IMG/VR virus record: IMGVR_UViG_3300047510_001118
Span: 214,127-278,126 of that record
Origin: a virus
Direction: 5' to 3' (one strand)
Length of the DNA stretch: 64,000 nt
Below the pieces are notes generated by a model. It saw only the letters and a program-made list of their open reading frames with translations. It was not told the origin of the DNA and did not search any database. The position numbers were made by a program, and so were the translations under genes. Below are positions 30,976-52,233 of this stretch, piece after piece (within the stretch, counting starts at the first letter, position 1; every line of letters begins with the position of its first letter).

Positions 30976-30979
30976 GAAC

Positions 30980-33022: not shown

Positions 33023-33032
33023 TGGGCGAAGC

Positions 33033-33040
33033 GATAAATA
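33033..33040 (+). promoter_or_regulatory. Late promoter box GATAAATA before the third fibre gene
   Basis: GATAAATA lies in the 41-base gap after the second fibre gene, 23 bases before the ATG at 33064. An AGGGGC ribosome binding site is in between. Confidence 0.6.
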
Positions 33041-33063
33041 TTATAAATTAGGGGCTTTAGTAA

Positions 33064-35034
33064 ATGGCGTATACAATAAATCGATGGGACGGAACAGCAG
33101 TAGCAGTTATCGAAGACGGTACTGTTAACCAAAGTTTAGATGTTAAACTTATTGGTAAAAATTATGCTGGTTACGGCGAAATACAAAACGAAAATTTTTT
33201 ACATTTAACCGAAAATTTTGCTGGTTCAATATATCCAGCAAGTGCGATTCGCGGTCAATTATGGTATGACACAGCCAATAAAAAACTAAAAGTTCATACA
33301 GGTGACCTAGTAGGAGCAGTAAAACAATGGAAAACTATTGGTGGTGCCGATTACGGTATTACTGAACCTGCTTTTCCAAATAATGGTGACTTATGGTTTG
33401 ATACTACAAAAGACCAATTGAAGGTTAGAACTGGAGAAACTTGGTTATCCGTTGGTCCACAAAGTGCTGGCGCTGGTACTACACAGATGCTTAGTAAGCA
33501 AGTTCGTGGTTTTGGTATTGGAAGTACAACACCAGAAAACTTCTCAATTATTATTGCTACAATCAACGATGAACCAGTTTACATGATTTCTAGAATTGAT
33601 TTTACTCTAGATATCAGTGATGCTGATAGTAATATTCCAGGATTTAATAATGCTGGAGTATCTAATTTAGTTAAAACAGGTGTTACCCTAGCAAATACTA
33701 ATTCTGTCACTGGCATTAGCGGTGTTAACTCTGATCATTTATATTGGGGAACTTCTTCTAATGCTTTACGTTTAGGTGGCTTCTTAGCATCGGATTATGT
33801 ACGTTCAGGAAGTTCTTCATTTACTGCTACAGTTCGTTTTAGTGATGCGGGCTATACAGTCGGCGACAGCAACGATTTAGCAGTATTCATCGATGGCGGC
33901 ACAGAACCAATTATTCAAAATATCACTGGACCAAATATTACATTTAGAGTTCGTGACGGTGCTGACATTAAATCACCTTTATCAATTAATCCAACTGGAT
34001 TAATTCCTAGTGTTACTGAAACATTTAACATTGGTTCAAATATACGTAAATGGAAAGACATTTACGCTGAAAATTTATTTGGCATTGCCACACAAGCCAA
34101 CGAACTACGTGTAGGAACAGAATATAGAGTGGCATCAACTAGCGCAGGAGCAAACACCATTGCGGCTAGAGATGCCAGCGGAAATTTATCAGCCAATACA
34201 TTTAATGGTAATGCTACAAGTGCTACACGTTTAGCAACTATTAGAACAATTAACGGTGTTAATTTTGACGGTACTAACAATATCATAGTTGAAGATGCTA
34301 CTAAAGTTAGACTTGATGGCAGTACAATGACCGGTTTCCTTACATTAAGTGCCGATCCTACAAGTCCTTTACATGCCGCAACTAAGAATTATATCGATAA
34401 CAAGTTTGGTATTGGTGGCATTTTACAAGTATCCTTTGGTGGTACTGGTGCTACTACTGCTGAAAACGCTAGAACAAACTTAGACGTTCCTTCTAGATCG
34501 GGATCAGGAGCCACAGGAACTTGGGCTATTAATACTTCTGGTACAGCAGGAAATGCTTTGTTACTAGAAGGATTCGGTCAAACTACTGCGGCAGTCATTA
34601 ATACAGTTGCCAGAAGAGACGGCAGTGCTAATTTAACAGCCAACGTTTTTGTTGGTACTGCTACATCAGCACGTTACGCTGACTTAGCAGAAAAATATCT
34701 AACAGATAATGACTACGAAGTTGGAACAGTGGTTATGATTGGCGGAGAAAAAGAAGTTACTGCCTGTACATTTGGCTCAAGAGCCGTCGGTGCGATTTCT
34801 GGAAACCCTGCTTATATGATGAACAGCGGCCTAGAAGGCGGACAATATGTTGCTCTAAAAGGTCGTGTTCCAGTTAAGGTAACAGGTAGTGTTAAGAAAG
34901 GTGATAGAATGATAGCCAGCAACGGGGGAGTTGCTATTGCAGGACAACATCATACTGCCGCTGATACTTTTGCTATTGCTTTAGAAAGTAATGATAATAC
35001 AGATATTAAACTAGTTGAGTGTTTAATTCTTTAA
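33064..35034 (+). CDS. Third paralogous tail fibre protein with chaperone-like C-terminal end
   Basis: The 656-residue protein has the same N-terminal module (QNENFLHLTENFAG, then IRGQLWYDTANKKLKVHTG). The shaft holds ATKNYIDNKFGIGG-type and NTSGTAGNALLLEG-type repeats, common in phage fibres. The final 120 residues start with ARYADLAEKYLTDNDYEVG and continue with GRVPVKVTGSVKKGDRMIAS. This resembles the C-terminal intramolecular chaperone or peptidase-G2-like ends that follow fibre trimerisation. It is the last gene of the 30-kb structural operon. Its stop overlaps tail to tail with the stop of thyA by 4 bases, leaving no room for a terminator between the opposing operons. Confidence 0.82.
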   Translation: MAYTINRWDGTAVAVIEDGTVNQSLDVKLIGKNYAGYGEIQNENFLHLTENFAGSIYPASAIRGQLWYDTANKKLKVHTGDLVGAVKQWKTIGGADYGITEPAFPNNGDLWFDTTKDQLKVRTGETWLSVGPQSAGAGTTQMLSKQVRGFGIGSTTPENFSIIIATINDEPVYMISRIDFTLDISDADSNIPGFNNAGVSNLVKTGVTLANTNSVTGISGVNSDHLYWGTSSNALRLGGFLASDYVRSGSSSFTATVRFSDAGYTVGDSNDLAVFIDGGTEPIIQNITGPNITFRVRDGADIKSPLSINPTGLIPSVTETFNIGSNIRKWKDIYAENLFGIATQANELRVGTEYRVASTSAGANTIAARDASGNLSANTFNGNATSATRLATIRTINGVNFDGTNNIIVEDATKVRLDGSTMTGFLTLSADPTSPLHAATKNYIDNKFGIGGILQVSFGGTGATTAENARTNLDVPSRSGSGATGTWAINTSGTAGNALLLEGFGQTTAAVINTVARRDGSANLTANVFVGTATSARYADLAEKYLTDNDYEVGTVVMIGGEKEVTACTFGSRAVGAISGNPAYMMNSGLEGGQYVALKGRVPVKVTGSVKKGDRMIASNGGVAIAGQHHTAADTFAIALESNDNTDIKLVECLIL

Positions 35035-37543: not shown

Positions 37544-37822
37544 TTAATGATTTGTGTACTTTAAATGTGAGCAAGCCAGTAAAAAGAAACTAAGCTCTTT
37601 TGGCTCTTCAAAACCAATTTTAGTTTTAATTTGAAATTGGTTATTCTCTAATGTTAGCGTTTCTCCAATATAAAATCTATACCGAAGATTTTCGTAAACC
37701 CATTCTCTAATTGCTTCAGTTAAATTGTACTTAACATCCAAATAATGATAATGAAAATAGGGAGGCGGATCTGGCACCTCCCTACAATCCAAAACATTTA
37801 GCGGATTAATCTTACGATTCAA
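37544..37822 (-). CDS. Small protein downstream of the VWA gene, unknown
   Basis: The 92-residue protein starts at TTG 37822, which overlaps the VWA stop as TTGA and has AAGGA five bases upstream; no in-frame ATG follows soon. It contains an aromatic stretch PPPYFHYHYLDVKYNL and a C-terminal KELSFFLLACSHLKY. No known domain is recognised. Because it is translationally coupled to the VWA protein, a supporting role for that system is possible. Confidence 0.55.
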   Translation of the reverse strand: MNRKINPLNVLDCREVPDPPPYFHYHYLDVKYNLTEAIREWVYENLRYRFYIGETLTLENNQFQIKTKIGFEEPKELSFFLLACSHLKYTNH

Positions 37823-38991
37823 TTTTTTCCTTCGTAATACGCATAAGAACCAAATGGTGGAACAACAGTGTCGTTACCGTGAATGATAAAGATTGTATCA
37901 CAGTAATCTTCGTCACCCCAACTGTCCCAAGGATAGCCATCTGTAAACATGATGAACTTTTTAGGAACAATGTCATGTTCTTTCATATATTCCCAATTAC
38001 AGGTAAAGTCAGTGCCGCCACCGCCCATAACTTCGTAGTCGTTGATTTGATCTGCTGAGTATCCGTCAAAATCTTGTTCGTTATATACACGAGTATCAAA
38101 GCACCAAACTTTCATGTTAAAGTCTTTGAACTCTTCCATAATACCTTTGATTTCACTCATAAAATCTGAGGCTTGATCGTCACCAATAGAACCTGACATA
38201 TCAATACCAATACAAATATCAATAGTAGTATCAAAGTTACAACCTGGTATAATTGCTCCAGTCATTTGACCTTTGCGGCTAGGACGACTCCAACTAAAGT
38301 CATTCTTAATTGTGCTTTGGATTTGTTGACGTAGTAACTCACGCCAATTCATCTTAGGCTCAGTCATTTCTTTAATCATTCGAGCAATTTCCCCAGGCAC
38401 GTTACCTGCGCCTGCGGCCTGTGCGGCTTGGATCATTGCTTCTTTAATTTCGTCACGAATTTTCTTTAATTCTTCTTTAGAATATTTTGGACCATTTCCG
38501 TCACCGTCTTTGTCTGGATCCAAATGCTGATCCAAAAGTTCGCCTAATGCTGATAGTTGTTCTTCGTCATACTTGCTGTAAATTTCGTCATAGACTTGTT
38601 CAGCACTCCAGCCGTCATACTTACGATCATAGAAGAATTTAACAGGAGGATCATCGCCGATGCGTTCACGCTTCAATAGACCATTAACACAATAGTCAGC
38701 GGCAATATTCCAAACTTGTTTATCTCTGCCTTCGTTACGCATCATGTGATCGTAAACACAATGTAAGATTTCGTGAGCAACAACAAATTCGACTTGTCGC
38801 GGAGTCATCTTTTCAAAGAATTCTCTGTTAAAAAAGAAATTACGGAAATCAGTAGCGGCAGTAGGAAGCCAATCACTTGCGTCTACTAATTTCATACGAG
38901 TAGCCATATTACCAAAAAATGGATGACGTAGTAAAAGTCCTACTCTGGCTACAACAATTTTATCAATAATTGGATCTTGTGAATGCGACAT
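37819..38991 (-). CDS. VWA-domain protein with metallopeptidase-like N-terminus
   Basis: The 390-residue protein has an HEILH zinc-peptidase motif at residues 73-77 (VVAHEILHCVYDHMM) in a DUF2201-like N-terminal domain. After an acidic linker (about 145-180) it has a C-terminal von Willebrand A domain with a MIDAS motif DMSGS (264-268) and GGGTDF. Proteins of this type pair with MoxR ATPases, which remodel or insert metals into targets. Here the MoxR gene stands directly upstream. The gene has its own near-perfect promoter. Related pairs occur in marine T4-like phages, and their targets are not established. Whether HEILH is an active protease is unknown. Confidence 0.85.
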   Translation of the reverse strand: MSHSQDPIIDKIVVARVGLLLRHPFFGNMATRMKLVDASDWLPTAATDFRNFFFNREFFEKMTPRQVEFVVAHEILHCVYDHMMRNEGRDKQVWNIAADYCVNGLLKRERIGDDPPVKFFYDRKYDGWSAEQVYDEIYSKYDEEQLSALGELLDQHLDPDKDGDGNGPKYSKEELKKIRDEIKEAMIQAAQAAGAGNVPGEIARMIKEMTEPKMNWRELLRQQIQSTIKNDFSWSRPSRKGQMTGAIIPGCNFDTTIDICIGIDMSGSIGDDQASDFMSEIKGIMEEFKDFNMKVWCFDTRVYNEQDFDGYSADQINDYEVMGGGGTDFTCNWEYMKEHDIVPKKFIMFTDGYPWDSWGDEDYCDTIFIIHGNDTVVPPFGSYAYYEGKN

Positions 38992-39021
38992 TTTGGCTCC
39001 GTTTGTTTACTGTATGTATAT

Positions 39022-39050
39022 ATTATACAATCGTTCTAAATTTTTGTCAA
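39022..39050 (-). promoter_or_regulatory. Consensus sigma70 promoter for the VWA operon
   Basis: On the minus strand TTGACA (39050-39045) and TATAAT (39027-39022) are separated by exactly 17 bases: a perfect sigma70 match. The initiation point would lie about 20 bases before the VWA ATG, where a CGGAG site is found. Confidence 0.85.
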
Positions 39051-39055
39051 GACAA

Positions 39056-39075
39056 AGGCGCATTTCTGCGCCCTT
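39056..39075 (-). terminator. Terminator-like hairpin after the MoxR gene
   Basis: The minus strand reads AGGGCGCAGAAATGCGCCTT, with a 6-bp core GGCGCA/TGCGCC and loop GAAA, ten bases after the MoxR stop. It is followed by TTGTCTTG, a weak T tract. It separates the MoxR gene from the promoter of the VWA gene. Confidence 0.55.
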
Positions 39076-39085
39076 GTTTTTTAAA

Positions 39086-40186
39086 TTAGCGGCTCTTTTC
39101 TTGAGCAGCCGCAATATACTTACCAAACTTCTCATGAAACTCATCGAAGCAGTCGATCTCGTCTGGATCCAATGGAAGTTGATATTGGGTAAGAGCAAGT
39201 TTAGTACCCATAACAACCAATTCAGTTTCAAAATTGTCCATGATAAAACGGAAGAAATGGTTTACTTTTTCGTTGAACTTTTTATCGTTTTTGTCTGAAG
39301 CATCTTTAAGTTCGTAGCACAGACTAACAGTCAACGAGTACATAGCACTAATTTCTTTAGTGTCCATTTTCTTAACTTTACCTGCCAAAATATCTTCTGG
39401 CTTTGGCAGTTTAGACGAAACTTTACGGTGAGCCATGAATTTAATAGCCAAACCTTCACCGACGGCACCTGAGATAAGATCGGTTAGTGTACTTTCGTCA
39501 GTGTCATCGTCTTCCAACAACTCGCTGACAAATGACCAAGAACGAGGAGTAGCAAACGCACGGCTTGAACTTTTTGGATCAAAGTCGTACAGATCTTTCT
39601 TAGCAAAAGTACAGTAACCAACTACATCCTTATGTACTCGATTATCGGTAGCCCACTGTGCCCAGTCATCAAAGTCTACACGCATTTCCAAGTGAACGAA
39701 TCGGTTTGCCAACGGAGCAGGCATACGATAAGTAACACCCTTATCTGCTTCACGGTTACCTGCGGCAACGATTAGGACGTTATCGGGCAGACGATACTGT
39801 CCAACACGTCGATTCAAAATAAGTTGATAAGCCGCCGCCTGTACACTAGGAGCCGCACTGTTCATTTCGTCCAAGAACAAAATTACGTGGGGGAAATTTT
39901 TAGCAAATTCTTCAGTTGGAAGTTCGCTAGGTTGTCCCCAAACCATTGTTTTTTGTACAGAATCAAAATAAGGGATACCCTTAATGTCAGTGGGTTCCCA
40001 AAGACTCAAACGGATATCAATTACATGAGCATTGAGTTCTTCACCAATTTGATGAATGATATCAGATTTACCAATACCTGGAGGCCCCCAAAGAAACAAT
40101 GGACGTTTCTTTTTAAATGCTTTACGTACAGCATTTTTAGCACCATTTGGGCTAACTTGACGATTAATGACTTCTGCTTTAGACAT
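39086..40186 (-). CDS. MoxR/CobS-type AAA+ ATPase
   Basis: The 366-residue protein has Walker A GPPGIGKS (residues 34-41), Walker B VILFLDEM (101-108), sensor 1 AAGNRE and an arginine-finger region MPAPLANRFVHLEM. These identify the MoxR branch of AAA+ proteins, the same branch as CobS of cobalt chelatase, which cyanophages also carry. Such ATPases act with VWA-domain partners, and the partner here is the next gene. The gene has its own sigma70-like promoter and is separated from the VWA gene by a hairpin, so the two can be expressed independently. The substrate is unknown. Confidence 0.88.
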   Translation of the reverse strand: MSKAEVINRQVSPNGAKNAVRKAFKKKRPLFLWGPPGIGKSDIIHQIGEELNAHVIDIRLSLWEPTDIKGIPYFDSVQKTMVWGQPSELPTEEFAKNFPHVILFLDEMNSAAPSVQAAAYQLILNRRVGQYRLPDNVLIVAAGNREADKGVTYRMPAPLANRFVHLEMRVDFDDWAQWATDNRVHKDVVGYCTFAKKDLYDFDPKSSSRAFATPRSWSFVSELLEDDDTDESTLTDLISGAVGEGLAIKFMAHRKVSSKLPKPEDILAGKVKKMDTKEISAMYSLTVSLCYELKDASDKNDKKFNEKVNHFFRFIMDNFETELVVMGTKLALTQYQLPLDPDEIDCFDEFHEKFGKYIAAAQEKSR

Positions 40187-42668: not shown

Positions 42669-43096
42669 GAGACTTCTGATTTACCTTCGGCTAGTTTTTT
42701 AACATTGATATATCCACCTGTTCGATCAGTCATATCAATACCCTCTTCGTCGGCTACGTCCTTACACAGTGTTCGAAACCAACGATCTACAATCTGTTCT
42801 TCAGGATCTCCCTCAAAACCATAACCTTCTTGCTTTAATTGTAGCACGAATTGTTCATTCCAGTCAAGCTCAAAAAATCCGTTACGTAAATTTTCTTTAT
42901 TGACATGAGTTTCCAAAACTGCCACATAGGGCTCTCCTAAGGCAGTGGCACGCTCTTTTGGAGACATCTTTGCCAATTCTTCTTCTTTTTTAGCAGCCTC
43001 TGCTCTAGTTTTAGCCAATGCTGTTTCGACAACTAGTTGTTCTTTTTCTTCTTCTAGTTTTTTAATCCCAGTAATTTTTTTAAGCCAATCTTTCAT
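42665..43096 (-). CDS. Conserved protein with coiled-coil N-terminus, unknown
   Basis: The start is placed at the ATG at 43096, which overlaps the QueE stop as TAATG and has GGGGGA five bases upstream; an earlier in-frame ATG lies inside queE. The 143-residue protein has a Lys/Glu/Ala-rich coiled coil of about 40 residues, then a globular part with FFELDWNEQFVLQLKQEGYG and DRWFRTLCKDVADEEG. No function is known. It is coupled to the queE gene. Confidence 0.65.
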   Translation of the reverse strand: MKDWLKKITGIKKLEEEKEQLVVETALAKTRAEAAKKEEELAKMSPKERATALGEPYVAVLETHVNKENLRNGFFELDWNEQFVLQLKQEGYGFEGDPEEQIVDRWFRTLCKDVADEEGIDMTDRTGGYINVKKLAEGKSEVS

Positions 43097-43950
43097 TATG
43101 TCCCCCATTCATTTTTAAATAGTGGAACTTGTAGTCTATCACTATATCTTAAACCGTTTTTCATTGCTAGTTCAGCAACTCTACGATTATTCAGAGTATA
43201 AACTGATTCAACACCACCTACGGGCATAAGATAACAAGATCCAGTAAAACCATTTTCTCGATACACATCTAATGTCTCTAATGCTTCTTCGGCATCTTCT
43301 TCTGTAGCAACTACAAATTTAAGATATGTATGACCAACTTCTTGATATTCGCAAATAACGTCAGGTTGAATTGCTTCGTTACGTTCTTCGCCTGAGCAAC
43401 TTAATTTAGCACTTACACTAAATGTAATTTCTTTATGATAATCTAATTCTGGCATTTGCCATTGTATTAGATAATCTTTAAATTCTGAACTTAACTTTTG
43501 AGTACCATTTGTTTCAAATGTAATTTCTTTTAGTCCTGCCATTTTAGGATGATTTAATAAATCTGGATAAGCACGTTGCCAACCCAACAACGGTTCCCCG
43601 CCTGTGATAACTAGATGTTCGTCTCGCCATTCATTGAACGGCAATATTTCCATTATACGCTCAGCAATAGCATCACTAGTAAGCATAGGACTAAGATCCT
43701 TGAACCTTGGATCCCAACTTGCGTAACTATCGCAGCCAGTAGTAACAAGAGGTAGTTCTTCATATTTGTTAAATTTATCTACTATTTGCGCGATTGCGTC
43801 TACTTCTGTGCTTAGTTGGCCTCTAGGCATACCAAAACCACTACATTTAAAGTTACAGCCAAAGGTACGCAAGAAAACAGAAGGAACGCCCATATAGCGT
43901 CCTTCACCTTGTATGCTGTAAAATAATTCTGCTATTTTTATTTTACTCAT
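43096..43950 (-). CDS. queE: QueE, 7-carboxy-7-deazaguanine synthase (radical SAM)
   Basis: The 284-residue protein begins with the QueE entry FYSIQGEGRYMGVPSVFLR, then GCNFKCSGF, and has the SAM-binding GGEP motif at 116-119 (ITGGEPLLGW) and ETNGT. QueE rearranges carboxy-tetrahydropterin into 7-carboxy-7-deazaguanine. Its cluster motif is unusual: C32 and C36 are followed by a 36-residue stretch before C73 (TTGCDSYASW), instead of the usual closely spaced third cysteine. The insertion makes the protein longer than cellular QueE (about 210-225 residues). It is in the same minus-strand cluster as FolE, a QueD-fold protein and a DpdA-type enzyme. Confidence 0.9.
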   Translation of the reverse strand: MSKIKIAELFYSIQGEGRYMGVPSVFLRTFGCNFKCSGFGMPRGQLSTEVDAIAQIVDKFNKYEELPLVTTGCDSYASWDPRFKDLSPMLTSDAIAERIMEILPFNEWRDEHLVITGGEPLLGWQRAYPDLLNHPKMAGLKEITFETNGTQKLSSEFKDYLIQWQMPELDYHKEITFSVSAKLSCSGEERNEAIQPDVICEYQEVGHTYLKFVVATEEDAEEALETLDVYRENGFTGSCYLMPVGGVESVYTLNNRRVAELAMKNGLRYSDRLQVPLFKNEWGT

Positions 43951-44240
43951 TGTTTTAATATTTCCATTGTTGCGATTTTAGCAATACGATCGCCAAAATC
44001 TTGATCATTGGTAATGATATAGGTTTGATTAAAATTACGATCTCGTTGACGATCATAATGTCTAAACTCTACAATCTTTCCACCTACGGCACTAAACACT
44101 CTAAAATTTAGAATAGGGTCTGAATCTGAAACTGATTCAACGTCTCGGCTGGCAACTAGCACTTCGCCGCGACTAACTTTATTAGCATTTTCCCAATCGT
44201 CACGCACCCAGCGGACTACCATTTTTTTAAACCAATTCAT
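43947..44240 (-). CDS. Conserved small protein upstream of queE, unknown
   Basis: The start at the ATG at 44240 has AAAGGA upstream, and its stop overlaps queE by 4 bases. The 97-residue protein begins MNWFKKMVVRWVRDDWENAN and then has a beta-rich core with VFSAVGGKIVEFRHYDRQRD and a helical end. The WVRDDW segment resembles short tryptophan-flanked stretches in two other proteins of this window. No function is assigned. Confidence 0.65.
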   Translation of the reverse strand: MNWFKKMVVRWVRDDWENANKVSRGEVLVASRDVESVSDSDPILNFRVFSAVGGKIVEFRHYDRQRDRNFNQTYIITNDQDFGDRIAKIATMEILKQ

Positions 44241-44452
44241 GCTCGATCCTTTAACCACAAATCAACCTGTGCTTCTGCTTCTTCTTGTGTGACAGCATAA
44301 GCATAGATCCAATAACAGTCATCCTTGCCTTTGATATCGAATGGTACAGGACCATTAAACAAGATGCCGTCTTCTAGCATACGTTTGACTTCAAACTTTT
44401 TTAAATTTTTGGCACGATTAATTAAATCGTTAGCCATATCTACTGAATTCAT
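44237..44452 (-). CDS. Small phage protein between folE and queE, unknown
   Basis: The 71-residue protein begins MNSVDMANDLINRAKNLKKF and ends with QEEAEAQVDLWLKDRA. Its ATG overlaps the folE stop (ATGA) and its own stop overlaps the next gene. It is soluble, with no known motif. Tight coupling to folE suggests co-regulation, not a known role. Confidence 0.6.
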   Translation of the reverse strand: MNSVDMANDLINRAKNLKKFEVKRMLEDGILFNGPVPFDIKGKDDCYWIYAYAVTQEEAEAQVDLWLKDRA

Positions 44453-45273
44453 CTTGGGGCAAACTCCTGTTGTAATTTAATATTATCAAAGAATTCTTTC
44501 TTTGTATTACCATCTTCTTTAAACGCACCTTTAAGCACTGTAGTCTGTGTTAAACTGCTATGTGCCATGATACCACGGTTTTCACAACAACCGTGCGTTG
44601 CTTGAATATAAACACCTAGATCTTTGGCTCCTGTAGCCTTTTCGATCTCCCTAGCAATGTCATTAGCAAGTTCCTCCTGGAGAGTACCACGTCGGGCGCA
44701 CCACTGTGCGATGCGTGTGTACTTACTGAGTCCGATGAGTTTCTGAGCCGCAATAATACCAATATAAGCAACGCCACTAACGGGTTGGTGATGATGGCTA
44801 CACATACTGCGAAGCTCACTGCGAACAACCAACATACCTTCGTAGCGGTCCTCCGAATCATTTGGGAAAGCCGTCGCGTCTGGTGATGGTTCATATCTTC
44901 CTGCCATTATTTCATTAAAGTACATCTTGGCAAGCCTACGTGCTGTGCCTTTTGAGTTAGGATCGTTCTCACGATCAATTAAGAGTCTATCTAATACAAG
45001 TTCAAAGGCTTCTGTGGCTTCGTCGATAAGTTTAGATTTATCTTCTTCACTTACATAGTCTGAGATGTTGTCGCCTGCCCAAAAACGCTTGTTATCACGT
45101 TTCATCTTAAAGCGAATAGTATCGCCCAAATACGCTTCTTTGTAACCTTTATCAGACATCATGTCTGCGGCTTTAACAAATACTTCTTTGCCCAAAGGTT
45201 GATATTCGTCTTTTACAAAGTCTTTATCGATCTTATGATTAATTATTGGGTCTGGTTTAAATTTTTCTGTCAT
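44449..45273 (-). CDS. folE: GTP cyclohydrolase I (FolE)
   Basis: The 274-residue protein converts GTP to dihydroneopterin triphosphate, the first step of both folate and 7-deazaguanine synthesis. It shows the zinc ligands C158 and H161 (SMCSHHHQP) and C229 (HGCCENRG), the GLSKYTRIAQWCARR loop and EDRYEGMLVV. It has about 80 residues of extra N-terminal sequence compared with the usual core. The gene has its own sigma70-like promoter with a hairpin in the leader. Since queE and dpdA are close by, a role in deazaguanine synthesis is favoured, though folate supply for ThyA/DHFR is possible too. Confidence 0.94.
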   Translation of the reverse strand: MTEKFKPDPIINHKIDKDFVKDEYQPLGKEVFVKAADMMSDKGYKEAYLGDTIRFKMKRDNKRFWAGDNISDYVSEEDKSKLIDEATEAFELVLDRLLIDRENDPNSKGTARRLAKMYFNEIMAGRYEPSPDATAFPNDSEDRYEGMLVVRSELRSMCSHHHQPVSGVAYIGIIAAQKLIGLSKYTRIAQWCARRGTLQEELANDIAREIEKATGAKDLGVYIQATHGCCENRGIMAHSSLTQTTVLKGAFKEDGNTKKEFFDNIKLQQEFAPR

Positions 45274-45289
45274 TGTAATTCTCCGAGTT

Positions 45290-45307
45290 ATAGACGTGGA
45301 TGTCTAT
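45290..45307 (-). repeat. Inverted repeat in the folE leader
   Basis: A perfect 6-bp inverted repeat ATAGAC/GTCTAT with a 6-base spacer lies between the -10 box and the folE ribosome binding site. It could be an operator or a leader hairpin that affects folE translation. It is too small for a preQ1-type riboswitch. Confidence 0.35.
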
Positions 45308-45312
45308 GTTTT

Positions 45313-45342
45313 ATTATATAGGTTTATTTAGGTTTTTGTCAA
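45313..45342 (-). promoter_or_regulatory. Sigma70 promoter for the folE operon
   Basis: On the minus strand TTGACA (45342-45337) and TATAAT (45318-45313) are separated by 18 bases; an overlapping TATATA gives 16. It lies inside the 3' end of the preceding gene. The spacer contains CCTAAATA, also found in the gp45 promoter. Confidence 0.75.
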
Positions 45343-45637
45343 TAATTACATTGCCGTTTTCATCGTAGGTATACCAACTATTAAGTTCAGAATCCCAATG
45401 GCGATTATCATAAATTCGAAATGCTATTCCGTAACCTAACACACCTAAAACAAATTCTAATCCAGCATGATCTCCCTTGGTAGCGAATTTAAATTCAACA
45501 TCCAATAATTGATTGCTGTAATAGGTATGCTCTAATTCCCAAAATTTGTTTTTAGAAATTTGTCCGTGAAGACAACCGAGGTTACGAAAATAATCCCAAC
45601 TCCAGGGACTGGCAATTTCTAAACGAAAATTAATCAT
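45314..45637 (-). CDS. Conserved phage protein, unknown
   Basis: The 107-residue protein starts MINFRLEIASPWSWDYFRNL and has HAGLEFVLGVLGYGIAFRIY and DNRHWDSELNSWYTYDENG. It is aromatic-rich and probably a small beta fold. The ATG overlaps the stop of the preceding gene (ATGA). Its 3' end contains the folE promoter. The type is common in marine T4-like phages and has no known role. Confidence 0.7.
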   Translation of the reverse strand: MINFRLEIASPWSWDYFRNLGCLHGQISKNKFWELEHTYYSNQLLDVEFKFATKGDHAGLEFVLGVLGYGIAFRIYDNRHWDSELNSWYTYDENGNVIIDKNLNKPI

Positions 45638-45858
45638 GTTCTATATAAATTGGTTTGTCCGTTTTCTTGATTTTTACGTATTTCTTCTCTGCGAAGTTGT
45701 CTACATTCTTCTTTAACACGGGCAGGAATATCTGGATGCCATTCTGCCATACCGCAATCGTAGGCTTTGGATCTTTCTTCGTTTATGCCCATTAGAAGAA
45801 AGATAGTAAAAATCAGCAAGATTAAAATTATAATCTTTCCGACAATAAGATTCGACAT
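45634..45858 (-). CDS. Small single-pass membrane protein, unknown
   Basis: The 74-residue protein has an N-terminal hydrophobic segment (IVGKIIILILLIFTIFLLMG) that would span the membrane once. A charged cytoplasmic or periplasmic tail with MAEWHPDIPARVKEECRQL follows. AGGGA lies 9 bases before the ATG. The function is unknown; small membrane proteins of T4-like phages often act on the host envelope or in superinfection control. Confidence 0.65.
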   Translation of the reverse strand: MSNLIVGKIIILILLIFTIFLLMGINEERSKAYDCGMAEWHPDIPARVKEECRQLRREEIRKNQENGQTNLYRT

Positions 45859-46046
45859 AAGTCAGCGTCCCTTAGTGATTTAAAAATAAAAGTCATTGAA
45901 TCTTGTTCTGGGTGACTAGTATATCGATTTCCAGGAAGTCCAAATACTTCCAAAACCATAGCACAGGTTTCGTTCCACCAAAATCCGTTTTGATTATCCC
46001 AAAGAATACAGATCTTATGCTGATCTGTTGCTAGTGCAACTGTCAT
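45828..46046 (-). CDS. Small conserved phage protein overlapping both neighbours, unknown
   Basis: The 72-residue protein reads ICILWDNQNGFWWNETCAMV and VFGLPGNRYTSH, with a C-terminal FIFKSLRDADLCRILLSE. It overlaps the preceding gene by 32 bases and the following one by 31, in different frames. The pattern (a Leu-rich end after FIFK) looks like a real small fold. The start codon is uncertain. Confidence 0.55.
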   Translation of the reverse strand: MTVALATDQHKICILWDNQNGFWWNETCAMVLEVFGLPGNRYTSHPEQDSMTFIFKSLRDADLCRILLSERL

Positions 46047-46212
46047 TCCACATTTCCTGTGCTTGTTTTTTATATTCGTTTAAATCCCACTCGGCTTGCT
46101 TGGCTTGATATTGTTCTTCACTTAATCCGTGCCAGCCTATACAATCTCCAGTGGGGCTACGACCGCAACCACAAGTTCCAATTTTTCCTTCTGGATTAGC
46201 TCTTACTTGCAT
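46015..46212 (-). CDS. Small cysteine-rich protein with CDGSH-like motif
   Basis: The start is placed at the ATG at 46212, preceded by AAAGGAA. The 65-residue protein has CGCGRSPTGDCIGWH at residues 14-28, which resembles the CDGSH iron-sulfur motif (CXCXXS...C.G.H) with one residue fewer between Ser and Cys and Ile in place of Asp. It ends in a charged helix. CDGSH proteins bind a 2Fe-2S cluster with three Cys and one His. A zinc site is an alternative. It may supply electrons, but this is speculation. Confidence 0.6.
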   Translation of the reverse strand: MQVRANPEGKIGTCGCGRSPTGDCIGWHGLSEEQYQAKQAEWDLNEYKKQAQEMWNDSCTSNRSA

Positions 46213-46579
46213 TTTTATAATTTCCTTTACTTGGTATAACGTGACGTACCCCGCCACGAGGATCTTCCATGTCTCCCTTTCTGCGGGGAATCATATGGAT
46301 GTGCGGATACATCACTGTTTGGCCAGCAGCCTCGCCACAGTTTTGCCCGACGTTAAAAGCGTCCCAACGTTCCGAGAGGACTCCGTCGGCACCAAACTTG
46401 TAGGCTGCTCTGTAACATTCCATAATGTTTTCAAAGCGTTCTTGGGTTGGCACAAAGAGCAAATGTCCCTCCGATACGGGATAGGCGTCTCTAAAAACCC
46501 AAAAGTCTTTTGTTCGATATTCAATTTCTGTCCACGGTGCTCGTCGTTCATTTAGTGCTTTCTCCAGATCATTAATCAT
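46196..46579 (-). CDS. HIT-family nucleotide hydrolase/transferase
   Basis: The start at the ATG at 46579 overlaps the PRTase stop (ATGA) and has GGAGGA upstream. The 127-residue protein has the HIT fold pattern: WVFRDAYPVSEGHLLFVPTQ, then NVGQNCGEAAGQTVMYPHIH and the active-site segment HIHMIPRRKGD. The triad is HxHxI/M rather than the perfect HxHxHxx. HIT proteins cleave nucleotide phosphoesters. It is translated together with a phosphoribosyltransferase, which suggests a joint role in nucleotide handling. Confidence 0.8.
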   Translation of the reverse strand: MINDLEKALNERRAPWTEIEYRTKDFWVFRDAYPVSEGHLLFVPTQERFENIMECYRAAYKFGADGVLSERWDAFNVGQNCGEAAGQTVMYPHIHMIPRRKGDMEDPRGGVRHVIPSKGNYKNASKS

Positions 46580-47154
46580 TTCCAGTATTCCTCCCAAGGA
46601 TATACTAACCAGCAATCTTCTTCGGCTTTGTTGACTTCCCAAGCATAATAATCTATGTCTGCTTGACTAGATAGATTATTTGTCAGTACAGCGAATCGAA
46701 CATTTTGATGCCAAATGTCTTGATCCCAGGAAGGATCATTGGGCATACATCCACTACGCCAATCTTCTTTAATCCAATTAATTGTAGCACCTGTATCATT
46801 AATATCGTCTATGATCAAGATATTTTTATAACTGTCGCCTTTTTCTAAAAGATCAGCCGCCGCTTCGAATATGCCTTCGATATCGTTTTCATCTTCAACA
46901 AATCGTTCAGATTGATATCCAAAGGCATCTTCGGCCATGCCTAAATCACTAACGGTTTGACCACCATCTCTGAGACTGACTTCTAACGGACGCATAGGAA
47001 CGCCTAAAAACTGACTGATCATTACAGCAGGAATAGCACCACCTCTGGTGATGCCGACAACATAATCAGGACGCCATCCGCTGGTAATAACACTTCTTGC
47101 TATTTCTAAACAAGCACCTTCAACATCCGACCAACTGTAATAGATTTTTTTCAT
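46576..47154 (-). CDS. Type I phosphoribosyltransferase
   Basis: The 192-residue protein has DYVVGITRGGAIPAVMISQF near residues 30-49 and the PRPP-binding motif ILIIDDINDTGAT at 112-124, both standard for purine-type phosphoribosyltransferases (hypoxanthine/xanthine-guanine type). It would join PRPP to a base. In this cluster the base might be a normal purine or a 7-deazaguanine derivative. A WIKEDWRS segment follows the PRPP loop (127-134) and is echoed in a membrane protein at 56571-56864. The substrate is not known. Confidence 0.82.
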   Translation of the reverse strand: MKKIYYSWSDVEGACLEIARSVITSGWRPDYVVGITRGGAIPAVMISQFLGVPMRPLEVSLRDGGQTVSDLGMAEDAFGYQSERFVEDENDIEGIFEAAADLLEKGDSYKNILIIDDINDTGATINWIKEDWRSGCMPNDPSWDQDIWHQNVRFAVLTNNLSSQADIDYYAWEVNKAEEDCWLVYPWEEYWK

Positions 47155-47381
47155 GATGTTAGTGCTGACGCTAATAATGACATTTCTTCTTTGGTCATGA
47201 AAAAATTGTAAACAGCAGTGTCAACAATTTCGCCGTCTTTTAGTGATTGTTGTTCAAAATCAACACTAAAAAGACCTTTGGGATTTATTACTTCGTGTTG
47301 TTTTAACACAAGTCGAAATCCTTCGTGATTTTTAATTACTGTTTCTTTATAAGTCTGTCTAACTGATTCATGTAGTTCCAT
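47151..47381 (-). CDS. Small phage protein, unknown
   Basis: The ATG at 47381 is chosen because AAAGGAG lies at a good distance; the ATG six bases upstream would overlap that site. The 76-residue protein has KETVIKNHEGFRLVLKQHEV and a C-terminal FFMTKEEMSLLASALTS. Its stop overlaps the PRTase start (ATGA). No function is known. Confidence 0.6.
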   Translation of the reverse strand: MELHESVRQTYKETVIKNHEGFRLVLKQHEVINPKGLFSVDFEQQSLKDGEIVDTAVYNFFMTKEEMSLLASALTS

Positions 47382-47778
47382 CTTCATCTCCTTTAATTGC
47401 TTCCCATGTTCTATATTTGGCCAGTGCTTTAATATAGTCGTCGTACATCTTTTTAAGTTTTGGATGTTTCTTTTCTAGTTTAACATCTCTTTCGGGCATA
47501 TTCAAGACTTTTTCAATAGTTTCCAAACGTTCTTCTAAGTCAACACCGTTAATAATCATATTACCTTTGACTTCTAAAGTGGGCGGATTACCTTGTTTAA
47601 TTGTCATTGCCTCGTTTGGATTGGTCCAGGTTACATTCGTTCCTGTTGAAGTATAGATCAAAGGACCAGTAGTAGTTCCCGTGCCAATAGTGTAACTACT
47701 GCCACTAGCACCTGTACCGGTTAAGGTTACTGTGCTATTGCTGTTTGTTAAGTTTCCGATCGTATAAGTATTTGTCAT
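47368..47778 (-). CDS. Conserved phage protein, Thr/Gly-rich N-terminus, possible structural
   Basis: The start at 47778 has a GGA site. The 136-residue protein has a Thr/Ser/Gly-rich beta-like N-terminus (residues 1-55, YTIGNLTNSNSTVTLTGTG), then GNMIINGVDLEERLETIEKV and a helical, charged end with KYRTWEAIKGDEDG. The ING.DL.ERL pattern is like that of fibre-associated proteins that mark attachment points. It overlaps the cupin gene upstream by 44 bases. The structural role is only a guess. Confidence 0.6.
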   Translation of the reverse strand: MTNTYTIGNLTNSNSTVTLTGTGASGSSYTIGTGTTTGPLIYTSTGTNVTWTNPNEAMTIKQGNPPTLEVKGNMIINGVDLEERLETIEKVLNMPERDVKLEKKHPKLKKMYDDYIKALAKYRTWEAIKGDEDGTT

Positions 47779-48196
47779 TGTGAATCCAATTATCGTCAAC
47801 AAGAAATCCCCATTCTCGTCGATGTGGACCAGGCATAAACAGCGTCCATGCTGTAACGCCTTCCTTTAATTCAATACGATGGTAACTTGTTGGACTACAT
47901 ATACGAAAGTGTCCGGGGCCACGCCATTTTCTTATTTCGCAACTTTTTGTTCCATCAGCATTAAATTGGGGAATCCATTCGTAGTAACCACCTTTGAGAA
48001 TAAGGGTGGCATAAGGCCAAGGATGATCGTGAACATCGTCCGGATCACCTTTTAAAAATTTATGTAAAAAGATATTGAAAGGAAAACGATTCCTTTCTTT
48101 TAAAAACAAATAATAACGTTCTAGATACGGCTCATTATATTGACGATCCATGATAATTCGTTTACGTCCGAGTTTATCTAAAAGTTTTAAAATCAT
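47735..48196 (-). CDS. Cupin-like metal-binding protein
   Basis: The 153-residue protein contains DDVHDHPWPYATLILKGGYY and GHFRICSPTSYHRIELKEG, the two cupin-type motifs with metal-ligand histidines (HDH and YHR). GAWTLFMPGPHRREWGF completes a double-stranded beta-helix. Similar cupins appear in marine phages with no known substrate. In a base-modification cluster it could be an oxygenase or isomerase acting on sugar or base, but nothing in the sequence fixes the substrate. Confidence 0.7.
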   Translation of the reverse strand: MILKLLDKLGRKRIIMDRQYNEPYLERYYLFLKERNRFPFNIFLHKFLKGDPDDVHDHPWPYATLILKGGYYEWIPQFNADGTKSCEIRKWRGPGHFRICSPTSYHRIELKEGVTAWTLFMPGPHRREWGFLVDDNWIHNDKYLYDRKLNKQQ

Positions 48197-49290
48197 ACAA
48201 GTCTTTCTAAAAGTGTATCTGCTGAAAAGAAATTATCTGTTAAATCTTTAGTCTGTTTACGTAGTTGTGGCAAGAACTTGTCATAGTTATCCATGTATTG
48301 AATAATCTTAGCACAAAGTTCTGGACGATGTGTTTGATATGTTTCAAAGGACTCGGTCCAGGTACTTGGATATTTGAAAGTATCGTAATACATTTCTTTA
48401 TAACTTAGTCGATCCGGCACCATAGGAATAGCATCTACAACAGCACCTTCATAACAACTGATGCCTAATGTTTCTTGTAGATTAGCACTGAACACTAGTT
48501 TTGCTTCACCTAACAAATTATGGTATTCGTTCTTTGTAAGTTGTTGATCCTGACAAACAACAAATTCATATTGTGGTAAGTGTTCTTTTAGATCTCTAAA
48601 GATTTCTACTTGTTTTTCTGGAGCAATGCGATGTGGAAACAGAATTAGATTACGTTTAACCATTCCTTTATATGTGGTTAAAGTATCTTCCATATATTCC
48701 ATAGGCCACCCTGATCGAACAATCTTTGGAATCTTTCCTTGAAGAGCATCTTGAATGTCTTCTTCCAACCAAGGGTTTTCTATCATACTATCATTTAACA
48801 AATTCTTCATAAACATTTCAATATGAAAATTTGTAGCAAAATAATTATAGTTGATAGCATGAAAGAAACTTTTTTCAGCGTGTCTAACCCACGGAGCATC
48901 ACCGATAAGTCGACCTAAGAAGTCTTGAGGATCATAACTACCAGCATGCCAAAGTGCGTGAATTTTTACAGGAATCTGTAATAGTTCACTCATATACTTT
49001 AAGTTTATGATACCAGGATGCCAAGCATCAGTAAAGATGAAGTGATCATTAGGAGCCACTGATCCACCGCAAAACAGCCGGCCCATCTGTTCAACTTGAG
49101 CAGACTTATATATATTGGTGCCGCCAAAATTAAGGAAAGCACCAGGAGTGGTCGCACTAGGAATATCTGTAGGACCAGATATAATTTGAACATTGTGTCC
49201 TCTCTTCCGTAACAGAGTTGGTAGATGTGTCTTCCACTGTGAAGTGTAGCGTGTTTCTACCGACTCTAGATCTACAAGGTAGATCGTCAT
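48193..49290 (-). CDS. GT-B family glycosyltransferase
   Basis: The 365-residue protein has a GT-B-like architecture. The C-terminal domain reads LILFPHRIAPEKQVEIFRDL, then YEFVVCQDQQLTKNEYHNLL and FSANLQETLGISCYEGAVV, with the EX7E-like donor site (QETLGISCYEGA) typical of GT4/group 1 enzymes. It could add a sugar to modified DNA bases, like the glucosyltransferases of T4, or act on host envelope sugars. It lies between a cupin and the QueD-fold gene in the presumed DNA modification cluster. The acceptor is unknown. Confidence 0.85.
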   Translation of the reverse strand: MTIYLVDLESVETRYTSQWKTHLPTLLRKRGHNVQIISGPTDIPSATTPGAFLNFGGTNIYKSAQVEQMGRLFCGGSVAPNDHFIFTDAWHPGIINLKYMSELLQIPVKIHALWHAGSYDPQDFLGRLIGDAPWVRHAEKSFFHAINYNYFATNFHIEMFMKNLLNDSMIENPWLEEDIQDALQGKIPKIVRSGWPMEYMEDTLTTYKGMVKRNLILFPHRIAPEKQVEIFRDLKEHLPQYEFVVCQDQQLTKNEYHNLLGEAKLVFSANLQETLGISCYEGAVVDAIPMVPDRLSYKEMYYDTFKYPSTWTESFETYQTHRPELCAKIIQYMDNYDKFLPQLRKQTKDLTDNFFSADTLLERLV

Positions 49291-49496
49291 TGACGATTAT
49301 TCCTGTAGTTATTTTGGCCTCTCGGCTTCCACTCTTTGCGTTCAAATCTTCTTGGACGCTTACTTGCCTCGTAGGCCTGCCAAATTTTACTTTGGCGGTT
49401 ATACAAATCTGCCGGATTATACGGCAACATTTCAAACCTGCAGAAATCCAACAGGGCGTCGAGATCATCAAAAATCCTAACGACTTCTTGTTTCAT
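49287..49496 (-). CDS. Small basic conserved protein, unknown
   Basis: The 69-residue protein starts MKQEVVRIFDDLDALLDFCR and ends with a very basic Arg/Asn tail (RRFERKEWKPRGQNNYRNNR), suited to nucleic acid binding. AAGGAA precedes the ATG. It overlaps the glycosyltransferase gene by 4 bases. The role is unknown. Confidence 0.6.
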   Translation of the reverse strand: MKQEVVRIFDDLDALLDFCRFEMLPYNPADLYNRQSKIWQAYEASKRPRRFERKEWKPRGQNNYRNNRQ

Positions 49497-49513
49497 CTTT
49501 TTATTTCCTTTAA

Positions 49514-49909
49514 TTAATATTTGATGAACGAACCATTTTCTCCATCTTCGGAGACCTCAATCCAAACCTCACGGCCAGGATACTTCTTGCTAATGATGTC
49601 ATATAAATCGTCTGACATCATTTCGCAACTCTTGTAGTCAAGGCTCAAAACGGAACCTTGACCATTATACAGCGACTCGAGCCATCGTTTGAACTGGATG
49701 AACTCGATGTCCCTGTCATTGTGTTGCACATTGATCCACACCCTGAAATGAAAGATGTGGCGATGAGGATAACCAAGAAACGATACATCATATTCATCTC
49801 CTGTTTTTAATTTTGGATCTTCTAGGGCCGCAGGATATTTGTGAATTCCTTCTTTGCGGAAAGTAACCCAGATCATTTTGTTAGGGCGAACATCTTGTTT
49901 AATGATCAT
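49514..49909 (-). CDS. queD: QueD/PTPS-fold protein lacking the catalytic cysteine
   Basis: The 131-residue protein aligns along its length with 6-carboxytetrahydropterin synthase. H23 (KEGIHKYPA) and H49/H51 (YPHRH) match the three zinc ligands, RDIEFIQFKRW matches the IIDF.ELK segment, and VWIEVSEDGENGSFIKY matches the C-terminal VKET segment. The QueD nucleophile Cys, four residues before the HxH pair, is replaced by Leu (L45 in FLGYPHRH), and the second catalytic His is not evident. It may therefore have a changed reaction or a structural role. Its position next to a DpdA-type gene supports a 7-deazaguanine context. The alignment was made by eye. Confidence 0.7.
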   Translation of the reverse strand: MIIKQDVRPNKMIWVTFRKEGIHKYPAALEDPKLKTGDEYDVSFLGYPHRHIFHFRVWINVQHNDRDIEFIQFKRWLESLYNGQGSVLSLDYKSCEMMSDDLYDIISKKYPGREVWIEVSEDGENGSFIKY

Positions 49910-50424
49910 TTAATAATTTTATCGTTGATATATTGTGACCAGTCTGTGAACTTACTACGATCCATTAGTGTGTGTAGACTGTGGGACCACACACCGGGAT
50001 TAGTTGCCTTAAAATCTTTGTCATCGATTTTAAGCATTGTATTATAATTCCAAAGTTTTATGTAAGGAATTGGAACACGAATCTGCGGAATAAAGTTATT
50101 GTATTCGCAGTAACCGCTTTCATGAAATTCTTCAACTTGATTAATTGGAATATCTAAACTACAAAGAATTCCTTCTTCTAACAAAGGAAAAATCATATTT
50201 TCCCAAGATTTGTGTTCTTCATAATTTTGCGGGTTAAAACTGTGATTAGCGCCAAAGAAAATATGTTTACAAAGTTCGTTGGCGTAGTGCTGTTTAATTT
50301 CAGTATATGATTGTACACCAGTTACAAACAGTGTTTTCAAACCATAGGCGGGCGTGTGTTCTATCTCTTCTCCAACGAAGAAAATAATTTTATCTTGAGA
50401 ACCGTCTTGATAATCTCTTATCAT
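49906..50424 (-). CDS. Conserved phage protein next to the QueD-fold gene, unknown
   Basis: The ATG at 50424 begins one base after the stop of the preceding gene, and no stronger start is seen; a TTG at 50481 would overlap it. The 172-residue protein contains HTPAYGLKTLFVTGVQSYTE, HIFFGANHSFNP and IDDKDFKATNPGVWSHSLH. Its stop overlaps the QueD-fold start (ATGA). Similar genes are found beside this QueD-like gene in marine T4-like phages. No enzymatic motif is clear. Confidence 0.65.
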   Translation of the reverse strand: MIRDYQDGSQDKIIFFVGEEIEHTPAYGLKTLFVTGVQSYTEIKQHYANELCKHIFFGANHSFNPQNYEEHKSWENMIFPLLEEGILCSLDIPINQVEEFHESGYCEYNNFIPQIRVPIPYIKLWNYNTMLKIDDKDFKATNPGVWSHSLHTLMDRSKFTDWSQYINDKIIK

Positions 50425-50425
50425 T

Positions 50426-50674
50426 TTAGTACTTGGTTTTTGATTTTGTACAAAGGAAGGTGCTACCTGATTCTTTTCCAACCATCGTCCACAACCGATA
50501 ATCGGCCGATAGAATACATTCGTTATAGGTTGAAAAACTATCGTCGCTCATTTTCATTAAATTTCCAGTTTCTCGAAATTCTAAGGCTACAACATATTTA
50601 GGTTTAGACCATGCTTGATATGAAACAAACAGAGCACATAGCAAAATTGTTACTAATAGGATTCGAGTTTTCAT
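50426..50674 (-). CDS. Small exported or membrane-anchored protein
   Basis: The 82-residue protein has an N-terminal hydrophobic segment after KTR (ILLVTILLCALFVSYQAWS), which reads as a signal peptide or single membrane anchor. The rest holds two cysteines (ECILSADYRLW and STFLC) that could form a disulfide in the periplasm. It overlaps the dpdA stop by 4 bases. Its role is unknown. Confidence 0.6.
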   Translation of the reverse strand: MKTRILLVTILLCALFVSYQAWSKPKYVVALEFRETGNLMKMSDDSFSTYNECILSADYRLWTMVGKESGSTFLCTKSKTKY

Positions 50675-52233
50675 TCCATGCCTTCTTCAAGTTTATCTAA
50701 ATTTTGAGCCTCTTCATCGGTAAATTCTTCACCGTGTTCTAATTGTACAGTCTCTTCTTCTGTTTCGTCAAAGAATTTGGCAAAGTTAGTGCTGGCATTG
50801 ATTGTTTTCTTACCAGTAGCACCGCGAGTTCCAATAATACTAATCCAAAATTTACTGTATTCAGTTATTATGGCTTCTGCTTCTGCTCTATCGCTGGTAG
50901 CAAAAATAGCCTCAACTATGTCTTTGAAAAACAGTCTATCAAATTTTTCTTGAACCAACATAGCAGGAACAATTCCAGCATCATATTGTCGATTGGCTTC
51001 TTGAACAGCATTAATATGCATCCAAACATTATGTCCCATTTGAATAGCATAACTAAAACTATCCCAACTGGTTTTACCAATTTTTCCAATCTTGTTCATA
51101 TCGGTTGGACCATATATACAGACATCAGATACTTTTAATTCTGCGCTGATTGGACTATCTTCAAAACCTTTGAATCGTCCATCTTGAACACCAACTGCTC
51201 CAAACGGACGATTGTCTTGATAATATTTTTTATCATCTATACTAGGAACCATTCGATACACCCACTTGGTGCGATCTTCAATTTCTGTTTGAATATAAAT
51301 TTGTCCATTGGCAGTTGCTAGGAATGGACTAGCACAGTCAAAACTAATAGTAAAATTAGGATTATGATATTTTCTAACAGCACGTTGGATGTCAGTGAGT
51401 AACGTAGCCCACTCTAATTTACTAGTACCAAGAAAGTGCATCCAGTCATGTACACCAGGTTCTAACAGTCCATCAAATCTTAACGCTACTAATCTACGCA
51501 ATACCAAATGAACATCACACATATTCTGACCACCCATAGCCCAGCCATTAAAATGACGTCCGGGATATTGTTTTGGATCGCAGTATTTTTTCATACGATC
51601 ATACCAATCATCTGCCTCGGCATGATTCTCGCCTTGTAGAACATTAAGAAACTTACAAGAACCAGTTCTATTGTTAATAAACCAATCGTTGTTAATGTAA
51701 GTACCTTGAACGGCTTCCATATAACTGTTAATACCAGTGGCTTCTCTGCCACGAGGACTACGGCAGACCCAGGCAGGAATATCAAGAATCATGCCATAAT
51801 CCATGTAAGCGTCCATCCACTTAAGAACCTGCTCACGTTTCTTTTGTGCTTTAGGACAGTTAGGATTTTTCCAATCTCCTTCCCAAACACCTTTACCAAT
51901 TTGGAAACCGCCCGAATCGCCTAACAGCCAACTGTCAGCACGATTACGATTACGTACCATATCTTCTTTAGGAGAAAATTTATTAGTATCTAAATCTGCG
52001 TGTCCAGCAGAGTATAGGCTCCAATGATATTGAAACTGTCCCTGTTGCGGATTTAACCAATTAAGACTTTCTACACCGTTGGTGAAGTTACTAGGTACTC
52101 TAGCAGGATCCACATACAGTCCTTTGACAGGATCTGGAAAACGTTGTTTTCCTACATAGGTAGCATAAAACCCGCTAAGTGCCGGTAAAAAGATAGCGTA
52201 GTCGTTCTGTGCGGCTGTTAAATTTTTATTCAT
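50671..52233 (-). CDS. dpdA: DpdA-like tRNA-guanine-transglycosylase-family DNA base exchange enzyme
   Basis: The 520-residue protein has TGT-family active-site segments. DSGGFQ at 106-111 is the substrate-binding loop, LDIP has D151, LQGE is at 199-202, WAMGGQN at 231-237, and SFDCASPF holds D299 at the place of the TGT nucleophile aspartate. The CXCXXC zinc site of bacterial TGT is not seen, as is known for phage and bacterial DpdA proteins. DpdA enzymes swap guanine in DNA for a 7-deazaguanine. folE, queE and a QueD-fold gene lie in the same cluster. The C-terminal 60 residues are acidic. DpdA is favoured over tRNA TGT by length and context. Confidence 0.85.
   Translation of the reverse strand: MNKNLTAAQNDYAIFLPALSGFYATYVGKQRFPDPVKGLYVDPARVPSNFTNGVESLNWLNPQQGQFQYHWSLYSAGHADLDTNKFSPKEDMVRNRNRADSWLLGDSGGFQIGKGVWEGDWKNPNCPKAQKKREQVLKWMDAYMDYGMILDIPAWVCRSPRGREATGINSYMEAVQGTYINNDWFINNRTGSCKFLNVLQGENHAEADDWYDRMKKYCDPKQYPGRHFNGWAMGGQNMCDVHLVLRRLVALRFDGLLEPGVHDWMHFLGTSKLEWATLLTDIQRAVRKYHNPNFTISFDCASPFLATANGQIYIQTEIEDRTKWVYRMVPSIDDKKYYQDNRPFGAVGVQDGRFKGFEDSPISAELKVSDVCIYGPTDMNKIGKIGKTSWDSFSYAIQMGHNVWMHINAVQEANRQYDAGIVPAMLVQEKFDRLFFKDIVEAIFATSDRAEAEAIITEYSKFWISIIGTRGATGKKTINASTNFAKFFDETEEETVQLEHGEEFTDEEAQNLDKLEEGME

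Follow-up and report, generated by a model that had tools for sequence, protein, structure and literature searches.

What base does a phage put into its DNA when it carries genes for 7-deazaguanine modification and no QueC? The question is raised by a gene cluster in virus record IMGVR_UViG_3300047510_001118 (278,126 bases), of which a stretch of 64,000 nucleotides, positions 214127-278126, was analyzed and is here termed the window. The cluster (window positions 43096-52233) comprises ten listed genes, all on the minus strand and several overlapping by 4 bp in an operon-like manner. An earlier annotation made from the sequence alone, hereafter the original prediction, had placed FolE, QueE, a QueD-fold protein and a TGT/DpdA-like protein together at this locus, and the four genes are confirmed to form part of one same-strand operon; to them we add a glycosyltransferase (GT; 48193-49290), a phosphoribosyltransferase (46576-47154) and the conserved protein X191 (49906-50481), which that prediction did not include. 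The assignment of the cluster to a 7-deazaguanine DNA modification type without QueC is well supported. QueC and the pair formed by the QueD-fold protein and the GT are mutually exclusive, and the GT is consistently part of the cluster, both in the lineage of the window and in five others. The best explanation we can offer, to which we give an even chance, is a phage Dpd-type hypermodification operon that combines diversion of 7-carboxy-7-deazaguanine (CDG) by the QueD-fold protein, DpdA and a sugar cap. The ten genes are the following.

50671-52233, minus strand: likely DpdA-type DNA guanine transglycosylase, 520 amino acids (aa), from motifs and profile comparison
49906-50481, minus strand: X191, conserved 191-aa protein, conserved near DpdA
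49514-49909, minus strand: probable QueD-fold paralogue, phrog_17812, from predicted fold and residue pattern
49287-49496, minus strand: small conserved open reading frame (ORF) of 69 aa, flanked by the QueD-fold and GT genes, in 60/85 related loci
48193-49290, minus strand: putative GT-B/GT4-type glycosyltransferase, from the EX7E motif and Pfam matches of the family
47735-48196, minus strand: cupin-like protein, phrog_4786 (PHROG E=1.4e-37)
46576-47154, minus strand: purine (xanthine/hypoxanthine-guanine type) phosphoribosyltransferase (PF00156, E=2.7e-11)
46196-46555, minus strand: HIT-domain protein, accessory (PF01230, E=4.8e-9)
44449-45273, minus strand: FolE, GTP cyclohydrolase I (PF01227, E=5.1e-39)
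43096-43950, minus strand: QueE, CDG synthase (phrog_2076 'QueE-like', E=2.7e-52)

Mutual exclusion of QueC and the QueD-fold protein

The original prediction had reported that no QueC was visible in the cluster and had proposed a search of the full genome. That search, made with PF06508, returned no QueC anywhere in the 278,126-base record, while matching 12 of 14 control genomes, and thereby confirms the absence over the full record. QueC likewise passes the cut-off in none of 19 environmental relatives, and no convincing QueC was found in the 11 isolates with a QueD-fold gene (Paride, ACP17, Phosso, X1, BUCT-ZZ01, phiST, RHph_I1_18, Bakedbeans, Ahp1, D479 and MA9V-3). Hence, the lack of QueC is a feature of the whole lineage rather than a gap in this record. 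Among the isolates, D479 alone passes the QueC cut-off, with a partial match of 32.8 bits that resembles a second QueC-like match (36 bits) found in D484 beside the real QueC of that phage, and the QueC score of X1 is 16 bits. By contrast, QueC is present in all eight comparison phages (9g, Moby, pf16, nt-1, D484, GR7B, NCTB and 2.275.O, which have DpdA or QueE and fall outside the list of QueD-fold matches), and neither the GT nor the QueD-fold protein is found in any of them (0/8 for each). A one-sided Fisher test for the exclusion between QueC and the QueD-fold gene yields 1.3e-5 if none of the 11 isolates is counted as QueC-positive, 1.2e-4 if D479 is and 6e-4 if both D479 and X1 are, values that serve only as a guide because the comparison set was drawn from DpdA/QueE matches, partly by annotation.

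Plain hidden Markov model searches of PDB with the profiles of the QueD-fold protein, DpdA and the GT were uninformative, and predicted folds and profile-profile comparisons were therefore needed. The AlphaFold model of the QueD-fold protein (mean pLDDT 91) has a beta-beta-alpha-alpha-beta-beta topology, and its top PDB match is E. coli QueD (probability 1.00, TM about 0.62, E=4.6e-4). QueD binds zinc through three histidines and relies for catalysis on a Cys and an Asp-His pair. According to the alignment, the family retains the zinc-binding histidines of QueD as H23, H49 and H51, together with the C-terminal E121 (here, as for DpdA, the GT and QueE, residue numbers refer to full-length proteins; the alignments omit the first Met and are thus one lower). 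The catalytic Cys position, as mapped through the alignment of the histidines, is occupied by Leu45, which is invariant (24/24). The T-fold with its three zinc-type histidines is hence found without the catalytic Cys and without a conserved Asp-His pair, and a new invariant Cys-Glu (C95, E96) appears at the start of helix 2. Moreover, a separate PTPS/QueD match is present in 11/11 isolates with the QueD-fold gene, ten of them over the Pfam cut-off and several with confirmation at the gene level. Given the loss of the catalytic Cys and this coexistence with a separate PTPS/QueD, the protein is probably not QueD itself, but a paralogue in the place of QueC. The QueD-type fold of the original prediction, which gave the protein no coordinates, can thus be located at 49514-49909 and upheld; that the protein is QueD is improbable, with Leu45 in place of Cys and a separate QueD in relatives.

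X191 was also considered as the QueD-fold protein and was rejected, since its AlphaFold model (pLDDT 83) has no PDB match at E<=0.001. In Vibrio phage Bakedbeans (L177:7212-8363) and Chryseobacterium phage MA9V-3 (L182:7464-8345) the QueD-fold domain forms the C-terminal part of a longer protein, the N-terminal part of which has no Pfam family. A canonical QueD was not found in the record, with no match to Pfam PTPS and a best E of 0.62 for a custom profile of 15 phage QueDs, and the possibility of an overlooked QueD was rejected on these grounds. QueD does pass the cut-off in 13 of the 19 environmental relatives, including all eight records of at least 188 kb, where it lies elsewhere in the genome; the window record may be incomplete, or the phage may use the QueD of its host.

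Both early-pathway genes are present, and the identities of FolE and QueE are certain from Pfam, PHROG and PDB profile matches; when compared with PDB, the QueE family profile matches 7-carboxy-7-deazaguanine synthases only (best 5.7e-15). The cysteine spacing of QueE is atypical, C32 and C36 being invariant and the third Cys, C73, nearly so: the QueE of the window and of most relatives shows CX3C with the third Cys about 37 residues downstream, as opposed to the usual CX3CX2C, which is the spacing seen in ACP17 and Phosso.

The glycosyltransferase and the transglycosylase

The EX7E motif of retaining GT-B enzymes (E273, E281) is invariant in 34/34 members of the GT family, as are R221 and K226. 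The window protein has no significant match to a Pfam glycosyltransferase, its scores lying below the cut-offs; within the family, the X1 homologue matches Glycos_transf_1 (PF00534) at 8e-12, and 9/34 members match at E<=0.1. Judging from motif and family matches, the product appears to be a retaining GT-B enzyme of GT4-like type. No domain of the tRNA queuosine mannosyltransferase kind was found among the Pfam matches of the family.

A tblastn search with the window GT over 50,697 annotated phage records gave 20 matches, 16 of them with a query coverage of 80% or more: 11 Pseudomonas phages of the PA5oct/Paride group, two ACP17 records, X1, Phosso and BUCT-ZZ01. All 16 lie inside 7-deazaguanine clusters, in five isolate lineages, and the same 16 records were recovered in a reciprocal search with the X1 protein. 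In the Pseudomonas group the GT match begins about 12 bases after the DpdA match, and in ACP17, X1, Phosso and BUCT-ZZ01 the GT is located in the FolE/QueE cluster. In the other four records the match is confined to two thirds of the query, and one of them, Xanthomonas phage PhiXhv-15, presents a different context, in which a distant GT homologue (L183:5669-8903) stands beside an annotated glutamine-fructose-6-phosphate aminotransferase and a GlcNAc-malate deacetylase, possibly for another sugar modification.

The GT is accompanied by two unlike DpdA groups, the window type (Paride and Phosso, with DpdA and the GT widely separated in the latter) and the X1 type (ACP17, X1 and BUCT-ZZ01). In viral contigs, which are mostly close relatives, 42/42 GT loci contain DpdA and the QueD-fold gene within a 5 kb flank, and 31/31 QueD-fold loci contain DpdA and the GT within a 6 kb flank. 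Three loci from genome assemblies in which the GT appeared to be missing (L234, L236 and L239) carry a divergent copy in its place; that of L236 shares 71% identity with the GT of BUCT-ZZ01 and aligns to the family profile at p=2e-20. The L234 cluster also contains a gene for an NAD-dependent sugar epimerase, that of L239 a cytidylyltransferase with a mannose-6-phosphate isomerase domain and that of BUCT-ZZ01 a second GT-like gene, and two sugars may possibly be added where two glycosyltransferases occur.

For the 50671-52233 product, the DSGGFQ motif (106-111) and D299 are invariant in 20 relatives. Its profile aligns with E. coli Tgt in hhalign at p=0.002, with the QG, GG and FDC..P...NG blocks in order, and with a second phage DpdA group at p=2.3e-4, this second group in turn matching Tgt at p=3.7e-6. 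The protein itself has no Pfam or PHROG match, PF01702 included. The DpdA-type transglycosylase named in the original prediction is borne out by the invariant motifs and profile comparisons as likely rather than proven. Its gene sits beside those of the DNA polymerase and the clamp.

The proposed pathway and its competitors

Building on the observed gene identities, folds, motifs, conserved co-occurrence and QueC exclusion, we propose that GTP would be converted to CDG by FolE, QueD and QueE, with QueD coming from the host or from an unrecovered part of the genome. The QueD-fold paralogue would then act on CDG and convert it to another 7-deazaguanine, in place of the preQ0 made by QueC, and DpdA would exchange guanine in phage DNA for the modified base. 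The GT4-type glycosyltransferase would add a sugar to the modified base, and the purine phosphoribosyltransferase would salvage the guanine freed by the exchange. That a 7-deazaguanine is the sugar acceptor and that the sugar is added on DNA are parts of the proposal, the observations that bear on sugar transfer being gene linkage and the in-cluster sugar-nucleotide genes of relatives. By analogy with published 7-deazaguanine phages (PMC6884629), the modification would block restriction.

Several points weigh against this pathway. Its chemistry is a prediction from the genes, the window GT falls below the Pfam cut-offs on its own, the record has no QueD and the eight comparison phages were selected, as stated above, from DpdA/QueE matches and partly by annotation. 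A QueC-bearing host could, furthermore, supply DpdA with preQ0, as happens for the 9g enzyme in E. coli (PMC6884629). In six isolates the QueD-fold gene occurs and no GT of this family does, which implies that the first step can operate by itself. The proposal is weakest at the acceptor atom, since an unsubstituted 7-deazaguanine offers no side chain for a sugar. If the carboxylate stays on the base, a sugar ester would be possible; if the QueD-fold protein is instead the decarboxylase DpdL, a base with no side chain would have to accept the sugar.

DpdL, which is said to be a published CDG decarboxylase predicted to make plain 7-deazaguanine (dDG), provides the competitor that survives best. 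Were the QueD-fold protein DpdL, the base would be dDG and the GT would modify another base or target. The replacement of QueC by the QueD-fold gene agrees with this, and the six isolates without the GT fit an enzyme that acts on CDG alone. However, the identity of phrog_17812 with DpdL is conjectural, and this reading accounts neither for the constant GT nor for the sugar-nucleotide genes inside the cluster; we regard this alternative as unlikely. Marginally less probable is the base of the original prediction, unmodified CDG (dCDG, reportedly a known phage base); in such a reading the QueD-fold protein would be a divergent form of QueD, and the GT would act elsewhere, for example on cell-surface sugars or the capsid. 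A record with no QueC, with no canonical QueD and with a protein that has the T-fold and zinc histidines of QueD is what this reading would lead one to expect. Nevertheless, relatives carry the QueD-fold protein and PTPS/QueD together, the catalytic Cys is lost and the GT stays with the cluster from lineage to lineage. With a QueD-fold paralogue replacing QueC and a constant GT, CDG is probably not the end product.

It is also conceivable, if improbable, that QueC (and QueD) from the host complete the pathway, that DpdA inserts preQ0 or a derivative and that the phage FolE and QueE only raise the flux. The 9g DpdA alone did put host-made preQ0 into E. coli DNA, at 0.3% of Gs (PMC6884629), but host supply leaves the exclusion between QueC and the QueD-fold/GT pair unexplained. 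Least plausible is that the genes raise queuosine in host tRNA and leave the DNA unmodified, for although the early enzymes are common to queuosine synthesis and such a role has been suggested for phages with preQ0 genes and no DpdA (PMC6884629), the window encodes a DpdA-like enzyme distinct from the tRNA TGT (no PF01702 match) beside DNA polymerase and clamp genes.

Returning to the glycosylated base, we put at about one half the likelihood that a widespread class of large phages has glycosylated 7-deazaguanine DNA, in which a QueD-fold paralogue makes the acceptor and a GT4-type enzyme adds the sugar. If so, a sugar on 7-deazaguanine would constitute a new chemical class of DNA base and would unite 7-deazaguanine replacement with base glycosylation, which are known as separate strategies. 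It would also assign a pathway step to the QueD-like phrog_17812 and predict DNA masking in jumbo phages such as those of the Paride/PA5oct group. Since the cultured phages BUCT-ZZ01, Paride, ACP17, X1 and Phosso carry the same cluster, the prediction is directly testable.

Accessory genes, surroundings and known systems

In PDB, the profile of the phosphoribosyltransferase family finds enzymes of the purine, HGPRT and XGPRT kinds, and homologues occur in the BUCT-ZZ01 and Paride clusters, which makes three lineages with that of the window. Guanine is released at each base exchange and FolE consumes GTP, so recycling of the expelled guanine would be a sensible role for this enzyme. The L234 and L239 clusters add IMPDH/GMP-reductase domain proteins; these marine-assembly clusters (L234:8713-13508, L239:8627-11948) also hold peroxiredoxin and sugar-nucleotide enzymes. 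X191 adjoins DpdA in most relatives and in ACP17, with a homologue elsewhere in the PA5oct/Paride group, and the HIT-domain gene is in the cluster of some relatives. The cupin-like protein, seen in nearer relatives only, has H44, H55, H57 and H105 invariant in the alignment and might be a sugar isomerase or a metal oxygenase.

Elsewhere in the window, a single ORF of 4,648 aa (14051-27997) has Pfam matches to TIG and FG-GAP only, and three large ORFs in a row (28675-35034), alike at their N-termini, are apparently tandem paralogues and perhaps tail proteins. A DUF2201 metallopeptidase/VWA protein is encoded ahead of a MoxR-like AAA ATPase (37819-40186), and the phage also encodes a ferritin-like (Dps-type) protein (60910-61344).

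DpdA-dependent 7-deazaguanine bases have been described in phages by Hutinet et al. 2019, together with the protection that they confer from restriction enzymes; the same authors remark that the substrate of QueC could be present in a phage in which QueC alone is missing (PMC6884629). Hydroxymethylated pyrimidines are known to be glycosylated in DNA (PMC13216743, PMC12783734). Phage Dpd modification itself is thus known, and a sugar on 7-deazaguanine in DNA was not found described in the literature searched, most subscription papers lying outside it; neither papers linking glycosyltransferases to 7-deazaguanine DNA nor nucleoside analyses of phages with this cluster were found there. Acinetobacter phage SH-Ab 15497 was considered as a 7-deazaguanine reference and rejected, its paper assigning no such genes.

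The window resembles the Dpd phages 9g (Enterobacteria) and nt-1 (Vibrio; PMC6884629) in having FolE, QueE and a TGT-like DpdA in one genome, and its QueE is 34.6% identical to that of nt-1, the DNA of which carries dPreQ0 (PMC6884629). It differs from both in having a QueD-fold paralogue and a GT instead of QueC or an amidotransferase, and in a DpdA that is invisible to the Pfam TGT model. With QueD/PTPS (6-carboxy-tetrahydropterin synthase) the QueD-fold protein shares the T-fold, the three zinc histidines and the C-terminal Glu, and departs from it in having Leu for the catalytic Cys, an unconserved Asp-His pair and a true QueD alongside it in relatives. Like the phage DNA glycosyltransferases (T4 alpha-GT, beta-GT and others), the GT would be of GT-B type and is genetically tied to base modification (PMC13216743), but it is linked to 7-deazaguanine rather than hydroxymethylcytosine and appears to belong to a GT4-like EX7E family. 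A further parallel is provided by Stenotrophomonas phage Moby (L228, Menderavirus-type), the 7-deazaguanine cluster of which includes an annotated inositol-3-phosphate synthase between FolE and QueC (L228:3454-4704), and Xanthomonas phage X1, which share a T4-like setting for FolE, DpdA and QueE. Moby shows the order FolE, ..., QueC, DpdA, QueE, helicase and X1 the order FolE, ..., GT, DpdA, QueD-fold, QueE, helicase, so that the place held by QueC beside DpdA in Moby is taken in X1 by the GT and the QueD-fold gene.

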